Below are positions 22,746-27,341 of a stretch of 64,000 nt of DNA, one piece after another. Within the stretch, counting starts at the first letter, position 1. The number at the start of each line of letters is the position of its first letter. The stretch spans positions 2,914,001-2,978,000 of the forward strand of contig NZ_WNWM01000002.1 of the NCBI RefSeq assembly GCF_009727155.1. The letters are read 5' to 3'. The notes beneath the pieces were generated by a model. It saw nothing but the letters and a program-made list of their open reading frames with translations. It had not been told where the DNA came from and made no database searches. The stretch comes from Pseudoduganella dura (lineage in GTDB: Bacteria; Pseudomonadota; Gammaproteobacteria; Burkholderiales; Burkholderiaceae_D). Both the position numbers and the translations under genes were made by a program.

Positions 22746-22785
22746 TGTTAAACCGCAAAATGTTTCGTTTGGCTTATGCAAGGCA

Positions 22786-22815
22786 TTGTCGCACACTCTA
22801 CTTCACCAATATTTA
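22786..22815 (+). promoter_or_regulatory. Candidate metE promoter
   Basis: TTGTCG (22786-22791) and TATTTA (22810-22815) are spaced by 18 bp just upstream of metE and downstream of the MetR box, the arrangement expected for MetR activation. The -10 element is a weak match. Confidence 0.35.
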
Positions 22816-22826
22816 ATTCTTGTGAC

Positions 22827-25238
22827 ATGAAAAACATTTACACGCACATCCCCGGCTTTCCCCGCATCGGCGCCCAGCGCGAACTGAAGACGGCACTGGA
22901 GCGCCACTGGCGCGGCGAGCTGCCGGCCGCGGAACTGGAAGCCGTCGGTCGCGCGCTGCGGGCACGCCACTGGGCGCTGCAGCGCGACGCCGGCCTCGAT
23001 TTCGTGACCGCCGGCGACTTCGCCTTCTACGACCACGTGGCCAACCATATAGCGCTGCTCGGCTGCGAGCCGGAGCGCTTCCGCTTCGATGGCAGCGAGC
23101 CGGCACTGGCGCGCTACTTCACGCTGGCGCGCGGCCGCTCGGGCGGCGCCGCGGCTGCCGCCCCGGGCGCCGATGGCGGCACCTGCGGCGGCCAGTGCGG
23201 CGGCGGCCACCATGGCCACGCGGACCGGGACGAGGGCAGCCCGGCGCTGGAAATGACGAAATGGTTCGACACCAACTACCACTACCTGGTGCCCGAACTG
23301 CATGCCGGCAGCACATTCTCGGTGGCGTCGGAACGCCTGTTCGACGAAGTCGCCGAGGCCCTCGCGCTGGGCCATGCCGTCAAGGCCACGCTGATCGGCC
23401 CGCTCACCTTCCTGTGGCTGGCCAAGGCCACCGACGGCTCGTCGCGCCCCGATCTGCTGGAGCACCTGCTGCCGCGCCTGCTACCTGTCTATGGCCAGGT
23501 ACTGGCGCGGTTGAAGGAACAGGGCGTGGCATGGGTGCAGATCGAGGAACCGATCCTCGGCCTCGACCTGCCGCAGGCATGGCGCAGCGCGTTCGAGACC
23601 GCCTACTGGCAGCTGAACCAGGCCGGCGCGCCGCTGCTGCTGGCCACGTACTTCTCGCCGCTGGAGGAAAACCTGTCGCTGGCCTGTCGCCTGCCGGTGG
23701 CCGGCCTGCACGTGGATGGCGTGCGCGCCGCGCACGAACTGGCCAGTGTGGCCGACTGGCTGCCCGTGCACAAGGTGCTGTCGGCCGGCATCGTCGATGG
23801 CCGCAATATCTGGCGCACCGACCTCGACGCCGCGCTGGCCACGCTGGCGCCGGTGCTGGACAAGCGCAACGGCCGGTTGTGGCTGTCCACCTCGTGTTCG
23901 CTGCTGCACGTGCCCTACAGCCTGGAACCGGAAACGGCGCTGGACCCGGAACTGGCATCGTGGCTGGCGTTCGCCCGGGAAAAGCTGGACGAACTGGCCC
24001 TGCTGAAGACTGCCATCGCCAATCCCGAAGCCGCGGCCGCGCCGCTGGCCGCCTCGCGCGCCGCGATCGCCACCCGCCGCGCCAGCCCGCGCGTGCACGA
24101 TGCGGCAGTGCGGGCGCGCGTGGCCGCGCTGCCGGACAATGCCGCGCAGCGCAAGTCGCCCTTTGCCGGACGCCGGCTGCTGCAGGGCGCCAGGCTGAAC
24201 CTGCCAGCCTTCCCCACCACCACCATCGGCTCGTTCCCGCAAACCCCGGCGATCCGCGCCGCCCGTGCCGCGTTCAGGCGCGGCGAGCTTGCCGCCGCAA
24301 CGTATGAAGCGGCGATGCGCGCCGAGATCGAACATGCGATCCGCCGGCAGGAAGCGCTGGGACTGGACGTGCTGGTGCACGGCGAGGCCGAGCGCAACGA
24401 CATGGTCGAGTACTTCGGCGAGCAGCTGGCCGGCTTCGCCTTCACGCGAAACGGCTGGGTGCAATCCTACGGCTCGCGTTGCGTGAAGCCGCCCGTGATC
24501 TGGGGCGACGTGTCGCGCCCTGCGCCGATCACCATCGGCTGGGCGCGTTACGCGCAAGGCCTGACCGCGCAGCCGGTGAAGGGCATGCTGACCGGCCCGG
24601 TCACGATCCTGCAATGGTCGTTCGTGCGCGACGACCAGCCGCGCGCCGACACCGCCGACCAGATCGCGCTGGCAATGCGCGACGAGGTAGACGATCTCCA
24701 GAACGCCGGTATCGCGATCGTGCAGATCGACGAGCCGGCGCTGCGCGAAGGCTTGCCGCTGCGGCAGGCGCGCCATGCCGCCTACCTGGACCGGGCGGTG
24801 CGCGCGTTCCGCCTCACGGCCGCCGTGGCGCGCGACGGCACGCAGATCCATACCCACATGTGCTACGCCGAGTTCAACGACATCCTGCCGCAGATCGCCG
24901 CGCTCGATGCGGACGTCATCACGATCGAGACCAGCCGCTCGGCGATGGCACTGCTCGATGGCTTCGGCACCTTCCGCTACCCGAACGACATCGGCCCCGG
25001 CGTCTACGACATCCATTCGCCGCGCGTGCCGGATCGCGAGGAGATGCTGGCGCTGCTGCGCCGTGCGCGCTCGGTGATCCCGCCGGAGCAGCTGTGGGTC
25101 AACCCCGATTGCGGCCTGAAGACCCGGAGCTGGAACGAGACCGAGGCGGCGCTGCGCAACATGGTCGGGGCGGCGCGTCAGATGCGCATCGAATCGGACG
25201 CCGCGGCAGGCAATGGCGGTACCGTCCAAGCCGCATGA
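22827..25238 (+). CDS. metE: Cobalamin-independent methionine synthase
   Basis: This cytoplasmic zinc enzyme moves the methyl group of methyltetrahydropteroyl-triglutamate to homocysteine, the last step of methionine synthesis. At 803 aa it is some 30-50 residues longer than usual. The N-terminal barrel opens with [14 protein letters not shown]. The C-terminal barrel has [15 protein letters not shown] and the zinc ligands His and Cys in THMCYAEF, and the last Cys in NPDCGLKTR. Between residues 103 and 140 there is an unusual Ala/Gly-rich insert with two Cys and three His, ahead of the conserved [12 protein letters not shown]. The ATG at 22827 fits the family N-terminus. It is divergent from metR with a MetR box between, so homocysteine-MetR control is expected. 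Confidence 0.96.
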
Positions 25239-25300
25239 ATGCAGGGCCGGGAGGCTGTTCCGCCACATGAAAATGCCTCACCGATAATTGTTTTTTGACA

Positions 25301-25364
25301 TTGACATCCTCCCCCACCTCAGCCAAGGGCTGCCGCGTGCGCGGTAAGGAGGGGGATTCCTGGA
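25301..25364 (-). ncRNA. Probable right end and guide-RNA (omega/reRNA) scaffold of the tnpB element
   Basis: On the minus strand the 3' end of tnpB and its flank read through GGAATCCCCCTCC, a CCGCG-CA-CGCGG hairpin, an AGCC-CTT-GGCT hairpin and then GGGGGAGGATGTCAA. This resembles the right ends of IS1341/IS605-type elements that I know. In such systems the RNA scaffold overlaps the tnpB 3' end and the guide is the DNA just outside the element, here about 25300 downwards. The boundary is not exactly determinable. Confidence 0.5.
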
Positions 25365-26431
25365 GCTAGCGTCGCATGTCCGCGACGGAGTATGTTTCTT
25401 GCGGCGTTTACATCACGGTCGTGAGGGGCGCCACACTGATCGCACGTCCATACTCTTATTTCAAGATCTTTCAGCCCTTTCGGTCCGCTACGTGCATCGC
25501 ATACAGAACAGTCTTGAGTGGAAAACGCTTCGTCGACCTCATCGAACCATACACCAGCGCTATCGCTTTTGTACCTGAGCATGGCTCTGAATTGCGACCA
25601 GCCGGCATCGAGAACGGATTTCGCCATTCTGGTCTTCGCCAGGGCGGATGCGTTCACATTGCCAACGAAAATGGCACCGAACCTTTGGACAAGTTCGGTA
25701 CTTCTCACATGGTGCTGGTGCTTGCGTTGGTTCGCGATGCGCGCGTGGATCGTCTTGACAAGCCTTTTCTTGCCTGCACGCTGGGCCATCGCAAGCTTGG
25801 CTTCGTGGTGCCGGTACTGCTTCAGCGCCTCGATCTTCTCGCCGTTTGAGAGCGTGGCGAAATGCTTCAATCCCAGGTCAATCCCGACGGCATTCGTTGC
25901 GGCCGATCGAGGCTCGCGCGCCACCTTGACACTGATGTTGATATACCAGCGGCCGCGCGCATCCTCCGAAAAGGATCCAGCACCCAATTGATATTTCGAC
26001 AGGCCATAGCTGTCCCAAAGGCCGAGCGCCTGATCGATTCCCGACATCCATAGTTGGCCATTTCGATAACGCAGCGCCGACGCCTTGAACGGTATCCAGC
26101 CGAGGGAGCGGCGAGCACCGCTTGATTTCCGCCACCGTAGCTTCACCTTGTTGAACTGCTTGCGTCGCCTGGCATATTCCTGGCCTATCGCCTGGATGGT
26201 TTGAGAATGCAGTGGGACACCTTCCTTGCTGGCGCCAGAGGTCATTTTGTCGAGGTCATACCCTGACAAAAACCGCCGCTCGCGCTGCCATACCTTGTGG
26301 GATGTTTCGTTACAATAATTCCAGCACTGATTCACCCAAAAAGCCTTCGCACGCAGGACGTGAGCGTGCTTGTCCTTCAGCCGAAGCCGGAGCACACGCA
26401 CGACATCAGCAGGCACATTGGAGGTCTTCAT
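25319..26431 (-). mobile_element. tnpB: RNA-guided nuclease-like transposon protein TnpB (IS200/IS605 family, IS1341-type)
   Basis: A 370-residue TnpB (377 if an upstream ATG inside a palindrome is used). It has an N-terminal OrfB helix-turn-helix-like region, a RuvC-like core and a zinc ribbon with CSVC and CDQC pairs (residues 315-340 in the longer numbering). RuvC-I is GIDLG (Asp192) and RuvC-III is DRDVNAARNI (Asp345/347). Where RuvC-II normally reads E-D-L, this protein has FVGNVN (262-267), with Gly in place of the catalytic Glu. Acidic residues in WFDEVDE (302-308) might substitute. No tnpA transposase is nearby. The 3' flank carries the structured right end expected to encode the guide RNA. 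It sits between metE and minC, with no gene broken. Typical TnpB length is about 370-410 aa. Confidence 0.92.
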
Positions 26432-26441
26432 ATTGGCATTT

Positions 26442-26459
26442 GCTGTATGCATATACAGC
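26442..26459. repeat. Palindrome at the left side of the tnpB element
   Basis: GCTGTAT-GCAT-ATACAGC, a perfect 7-bp inverted repeat around the first possible ATG of tnpB. IS200/IS605 ends usually carry such subterminal hairpins. Further out, TCCAGGAAT (26491-26499) is the inverse of ATTCCTGGA (25356-25364) on the other side. The true left boundary is not resolved. Confidence 0.45.
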
Positions 26460-26594
26460 GTAGCAAGATATAAATAAAACGCAATGAAAATCCAGGAATG
26501 CCCGCTTTGACATTTCCGCCTTGAAGGACAGAGCGTTACCCGCTAACTGGTAAAATGCTCGGGCCCGGGCCAGCCCGAACTTTTTACTGTCGTC

Positions 26595-27341
26595 ATGTCC
26601 AAAAGCCCGTTCCAGAAGCCCATTGAAATCAAGATTTCCACCGTTGTCGCCGTCTCCGCGATCCTCCATACCTCCGACGGCATTGCCCTCGACGCCGCCC
26701 TGAAGGGCATGACGGGCGGCGTGGCCGATTTCTTCGAGGGCGACCTGGCCGTCATCGACGTCGGCGACCTGGCGCCGGGCTCGCAACGGATCGACTGGGC
26801 AGGCACGATCGCGCTGCTGAAGAAATACCGCCTGAATCCGGTCGCCGTGCGTAACGCCCGGGCGGACATGGTGGAAGAAATCCAGGCCCACGGCCTGTCG
26901 CTCGATACCGGCAAGCGCGACGACAACGGCGCAGCCGCCACCGTGGCGGTTCCGGCGCCGGCACCCGCGCCCGCCTTTACGCCCGCCCCGGCGCCCGCGC
27001 CCGCCAACTCGGGCACGATCATCATCGATACACCGGTTCGCGCCGGCCAGCGCATCTATGCGCGCGGTGGCGACCTGATCGTGATGGCCGTCGTCAACAA
27101 CGGCGCCGAGATCATTGCCGATGGCAGCATCCATGTTTACAACACGCTGAACGGCCGTGCGCTGGCCGGCGCCTCCGGCGACCCGAGCGCACGCATCTTC
27201 GCTCTGTCGATGTCGCCCGAACTGGTGTCGATCGCCGGTGTCTACCGCACATTCGAGGACGGATTCCCCCCAGAACAGGCTCGCCAGCCGGCACAAATCC
27301 GGCTCATCGGCGACCGTCTGGATATACAATCTGTCAATTAA
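26595..27341 (+). CDS. minC: Septum site-determining protein MinC
   Basis: An FtsZ-ring inhibitor of 248 aa. The N-terminal domain (about residues 1-110) inhibits FtsZ. A flexible linker rich in Pro and Ala (about 115-140, PAPAPAPAF and similar) follows, and then the C-terminal beta-helix that binds MinD (TPVRAGQRIYARGGDLIVM and later IHVYNTLNGRALAG, both family hallmarks). It is first in the minC-minD-minE operon, 63 bp before minD. A TAAAAT -10-like hexamer lies about 40 bp upstream. The long Pro/Ala linker is common in betaproteobacteria. Confidence 0.96.
   Translation: MSKSPFQKPIEIKISTVVAVSAILHTSDGIALDAALKGMTGGVADFFEGDLAVIDVGDLAPGSQRIDWAGTIALLKKYRLNPVAVRNARADMVEEIQAHGLSLDTGKRDDNGAAATVAVPAPAPAPAFTPAPAPAPANSGTIIIDTPVRAGQRIYARGGDLIVMAVVNNGAEIIADGSIHVYNTLNGRALAGASGDPSARIFALSMSPELVSIAGVYRTFEDGFPPEQARQPAQIRLIGDRLDIQSVN

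Follow-up and report, generated by a model that had tools for sequence, protein, structure and literature searches.

Proteins of the TnpB family have been divided by the position of the RuvC-II glutamate: in excerpts of PMC10711439 (Nucleic Acids Res. 2023), a canonical position (Ecan) is defined that precedes the zinc finger by about 50 residues and an alternative one (Ealt) that precedes it by six, and the two types were clearly separated on about 800 representatives. The same excerpts split Ealt proteins into two branches, DPG, to which Fanzors and pro-Fanzors belong, and DΦG, and they propose reduced trans-cleavage for pro-Fanzors and Fanzors. At the canonical position, the substitution E278A compromises interference by ISDra2 TnpB (excerpt of PMC8612924). 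A moved glutamate is not mentioned in the excerpts of PMC10432273 or PMC3627910, and a term search of PMC11061315 gave no match. No published cleavage test of a DΦG-Ealt TnpB was found in a partial literature search. Two papers from 2023 that deal with the diversity of Fanzor and TnpB, one in Science Advances and one in PNAS, reportedly describe the same glutamate change.

Here we describe a tnpB gene with motifs of the alternative type within a window of 64,000 nucleotides, by which we mean the whole stretch of DNA that was analyzed. The gene lies on the minus strand at 25319..26452 and is an open reading frame of 377 codons, or of 370 if translation begins at an ATG at 26431. The first-pass annotation had placed the end of the gene at 26431, which is that later ATG, and its residue numbers nevertheless match the 377-amino-acid frame used here. 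The product matched the guided_TnpB profile NF040570 at 213.4 bits (cut-off, 100) and exceeded the cut-offs of both PF07282 (79.3 bits; cut-off, 26.3) and PF01385 (46.5 bits; cut-off, 30.5), and this TnpB family member is probably an RNA-guided DNA endonuclease. An AlphaFold model of the protein, predicted without RNA, had a moderate pTM.

The RuvC-II region of TnpB reads F-V-G264-N-V-N, and HMMER alignment paired G264 (codon 25661..25663, minus strand) with a glutamate of ISDra2 TnpB that, from the chain numbering, is E278. As E278A compromises ISDra2 interference, it is fair to ask about the loss of a glutamate at G264. Homologs were taken as the best 120 of 8000 scored, a set that seems to include the second copy from the same genome (P0001), and position 264 was Gly in 119 of these 120 and a gap in one. 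Thus, the glycine that had been noted earlier is present and is not a one-off, and a GNV confined to a single copy, set beforehand as counting against the earlier reading, did not occur. In the same listed homologs, the RuvC-I catalytic Asp, D192 (codon 25877..25879), was Asp in all 120, and within its DLG motif (GIDLG) the Leu was likewise found in 120 and the Gly in 119. The RuvC-III catalytic Asp, D347 (codon 25412..25414), was Asp in 119 with one gap, and E308 (codon 25529..25531) was Glu in 120; all four codons were checked and lie on the minus strand. All four cysteines of the zinc ribbon, C315, C318, C337, and C340 (25433..25510, minus strand), were invariant over 100 aligned rows, in which the window's protein is counted twice, and the invariant acidic residues of that alignment were D192, D282, E308, and D347. 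RuvC-I, RuvC-III, and the zinc ribbon are therefore intact, as had been described.

A second protein set was taken from DNA and contained 105 distinct proteins, overlapping the first set. Gly264 occurred together with Glu308 in 99 of the 105 (including the window's own protein and its sister copy), the reverse combination of Glu at 264 without Glu at 308 occurred in 3, such that the canonical comparison group consists of three proteins, and the RuvC-II part was missing in another 3. Among the proteins covering both positions, none had both glutamates and none had neither. The first zinc cysteine, C315, follows E308 by seven residues, giving the ExxxxxxC spacing of Ealt, and there is no Glu at Ecan (G264). 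The spacing of E308 and C315, together with D192-L193-G194 in RuvC-I where pro-Fanzors and Fanzors have DPG, places TnpB in the non-Fanzor, DΦG-Ealt branch. Judged by motif only, TnpB is a member of the DΦG-Ealt group published in PMC10711439; the moved-glutamate arrangement is already known, and this protein is a further member. We conclude that the RuvC center is probably formed by D192, E308, and D347 in an active RNA-guided nuclease, with E308 as a putative metal-binding residue and TnpB as the protein that would do the cutting.

The gene is carried by a complete IS200/IS605-type element of 1249 bp that lacks tnpA (25301..26549, minus strand). Empty sites in two relatives, G003 and G020 (loci L029 and L030), fix the ends at 25301 and 26549, as the joined flanks matched L029 and L030 over positions 28-211 at 95.1% and 93.5%, respectively, across the join. 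On the coding strand, the element sits 3′ of TTTAC, ends on the right in GTCAA, and has no target duplication, and insertion 3′ of a short motif without duplication is of the IS200/IS605 type. TTTAC in the left flank (26550..26554, minus strand), which also precedes the sister copy, is the predicted TAM. The right flank, TGTCAAAAAACAATTATCGG (25281..25300, minus strand), lies just 3′ of TTTAC in the empty site and, by analogy with ISDra2 (excerpt of PMC8612924), would serve as the guide. The empty-site sequence was absent from the element's own genome at up to 2 mismatches, as expected for a filled site, and this absence is weak evidence. By Pfam, the genes on either side of the element encode MetE and MinC. 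The insertion is 45 bases before the MinC start (window 25280-26620) and splits a TTGACA hexamer from MinC; a promoter scan of the L030 empty site found no sigma-70-like site. We note that MetE (22776-25238) contains a Gly/His-rich stretch of 25 residues beginning at residue 131.

The genome contains two TnpB genes of this kind. The sister copy is 1243 bp long and is identical to the window element at 1150 of 1257 aligned positions, in an alignment spanning 25301-26557, which extends 8 bases past the element and takes in the shared TTTAC. Between the two genes there are 48 synonymous and 26 nonsynonymous changes, and the resulting dN/dS of about 0.15 indicates purifying selection between the two genomic copies. 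A right-end search matched the two own copies and gave no other clear match, and a search for solo left ends carries little weight, as it missed even the sister copy. A left-end pattern of TTTAC joined to the motif matched 8 of 113 rows, all of them records of the two own copies. Twelve aligned Sphaerotilus copies had TGAC at the left boundary instead, and from this base run only, members seem to have different targets. One Sphaerotilus bin (L118-L136) accounted for 13 of the 80 related loci, and the common TGAC and differing flanks of its 12 aligned copies suggest recent expansion. Five of the 80 loci failed a zinc-ribbon pattern and were dropped; among the 75 analyzed, GATGTCAA followed tnpB in 53, the next 16-base stretch differed in 53 of 53, and TGTCAA was missing from the 320 bases after RuvC-III in 21.

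The right end also contains the scaffold of a putative omega-RNA (reRNA), which overlaps the 3′ end of tnpB (25301..25410, minus strand). A search of 24800-27000 against Rfam had no match up to E 1, and the omega-RNA was therefore tested by covariation. Moreover, single-sequence folding of the right end barely outperformed shuffled sequences (z, −1.45; 19 of 200 as good), and thus the case for the omega-RNA rests on the alignment. Only ends with GATGTCAA were aligned, so that the columns of this motif are fixed by choice, and 47 ends remained once L062, whose TnpB is truncated and of a different type, was dropped. The structure comprises 18 pairs in four helices, with 97.5% of cells paired, and 14 of the 18 pairs had changes on both sides, for 129 two-sided changes in all. 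On each of five measures, all 500 shuffles scored lower, in a comparison where related sequences can exceed shuffles, and sliding the partners destroyed the signal, although the structure should exceed its slid versions to some extent because it was taken from the alignment being tested. One pair of a three-pair hairpin occurred as CG in 16 ends, AU in 15, GC in 8, UA in 5, and GU in 2, and the two-sided changes at this pair are the strongest part of the RNA case. In the window (25301-25375), the terminal hairpin carries two extra small hairpins; this branched end is common to the present element, the sister copy, L008, L102, and L148, and most of the 47 ends have a simple loop.

No tnpA ORF was present in 25301-26549, in agreement with the first-pass annotation, and the Y1 tnpA of an autonomous IS605 element is thus missing; the PF01797 (Y1) matches of the genome lie elsewhere. 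The four such matches scored 27 to 49 bits, their open frames were 220 to 264 amino acids long, and these genes appear to resemble REP-associated transposases; the PF01797 search found no IS200-like tnpA in the genome. The six full Y1 genes found in relatives had frames of 147 to 213 amino acids and scores of 126 to 151 bits. An HUH-pattern search, with a pattern that was too strict, found no tnpA, and 47 tnpA loci obtained with an ORF query that ran into antisense tnpB were mostly spurious. Trimmed ORFs from L127, L140, and L163 used as queries matched 9 of the 80 related loci: six near full length (three being the queries themselves), L112 over 96 residues, and L176 and L180 as fragments only. 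A Y1 tnpA, or most of one, therefore adjoins tnpB on the opposite strand in 7 of 80 loci, a count in which 8 loci hold fewer than 600 bases before tnpB and could not show tnpA and which distant Y1 genes could escape. In these seven (L107, L112, L127, L134, L140, L141, and L163), tnpA is divergent from an Ealt tnpB, as in two-gene IS605-type elements; no Y1 tnpA was found in the 27 loci of this genome and sampled relatives (L001-L027). Without a transposase of its own, the element would depend on one in trans, and this copy may no longer be mobile, because the genome search gave no IS200-type tnpA.

TnpB could instead be nuclease-dead and, in the manner of TldR, bind DNA under RNA guidance to repress transcription; a dead protein or RNA-guided repressor had been raised as a possibility in the first-pass annotation. 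Absence of the canonical Glu from all 120 listed homologs (119 Gly and one gap) and the lack of tnpA fit such a binder, but both aspartates and E308 are kept, and the sites are those of mobile DNA: all 53 of 53 related loci have different expected guides, the flank here matches the element's own empty site rather than a shared host promoter, and the closest relatives (L029 and L030) have no insertion there. Together with purifying selection and with mobile ends and a covarying omega-RNA in related loci, these observations make a dead repressor very unlikely, and it was rejected. A decaying relic, with an open frame but a protein that no longer cuts, is also very unlikely. Consistent with decay, no cognate transposase was found in the genome, there are only two copies, and some relatives, such as L007, have a stop inside the match; against it, the frame is intact and under the selection noted above, and the right end is intact with conserved stems.

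The WFDEVDE motif had been suggested as a possible source of the acid missing from RuvC-II. The motif offers two glutamates, and the suggestion has support for E308 but none for E305. E305 lies within this motif, with Glu in 113 of the 120 listed homologs (best 120 of 8000), yet it is Lys in the sister copy and Glu in only 81 of the 99 Gly264 proteins, with Val, Lys, Gln, or Ala in the other 18, whereas E308 never varies in the first set or in the 99 Gly264 proteins of the second. E305 was accordingly rejected as the catalytic residue, a role it is extremely unlikely to have. We conclude that the D192-E308-D347 arrangement probably belongs to a working rather than a dead enzyme.

In the mechanism we propose, the glutamate would have left the tip of one RuvC strand, where G264 now is, for a place just past the tip of the next strand, adjoining the zinc ribbon. 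The right-end RNA would fold into a three-stem scaffold and carry the flanking DNA as a guide. Excision of the element by a transposase would join the flanks, and the product, TTTAC followed by the guide match, would be the target for cutting; repair from the sister copy could then restore the element. The best reading is that the enzyme is predicted to cut the empty donor site. It is possible, but doubtful, that the DΦG-Ealt TnpBs of proteobacteria form a mobile group of IS605-type nucleases in which the moved glutamate changes cutting, for example toward less trans-cleavage. If true, the glutamate change would have a bacterial origin, one that includes IS200/IS605 elements, rather than being part of adaptation to eukaryotes. 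The element is compact and bacterial, its ends are exact, and its TAM, guide, and scaffold are predicted; because it has the Fanzor-type glutamate without the Fanzor DPG, it allows the glutamate move to be tested alone. A caution also follows, in that the RuvC-II motif alone is insufficient for calling TnpBs dead.

Among known systems, the closest is the DΦG-Ealt clade (excerpts of PMC10711439), with which TnpB shares RuvC-I DLG, the Ealt spacing, and the lack of an Ecan Glu and from which no difference was found by motif. ISDra2 TnpB (8h1j and 8exa; excerpt of PMC8612924) shares the fold, domain order, zinc ribbon, and right-end RNA, and its element is likewise inserted 3′ of a pentanucleotide; it differs in having Glu at the canonical place (E278), TTGAT as the target instead of TTTAC, and its own tnpA. 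TldR repressors, in the excerpted descriptions, are likewise TnpB relatives with an altered canonical active site, but they have lost the RuvC catalytic set, whereas D192, E308, and D347 are kept here and a full D-E-D set is left if E308 is counted. Elements without tnpA, of the IS1341 type, share tnpB and IS605-like ends without a transposase; the group around this TnpB differs in that a Y1 tnpA, or most of one, adjoins 7 of 80 loci. Finally, Fanzor2 (mimivirus L79, 9b0l) and pro-Fanzors have DPG in RuvC-I where this protein has DLG, and pro-Fanzors are found in IS607 elements, whereas this TnpB is carried by an element of the IS200/IS605 type.
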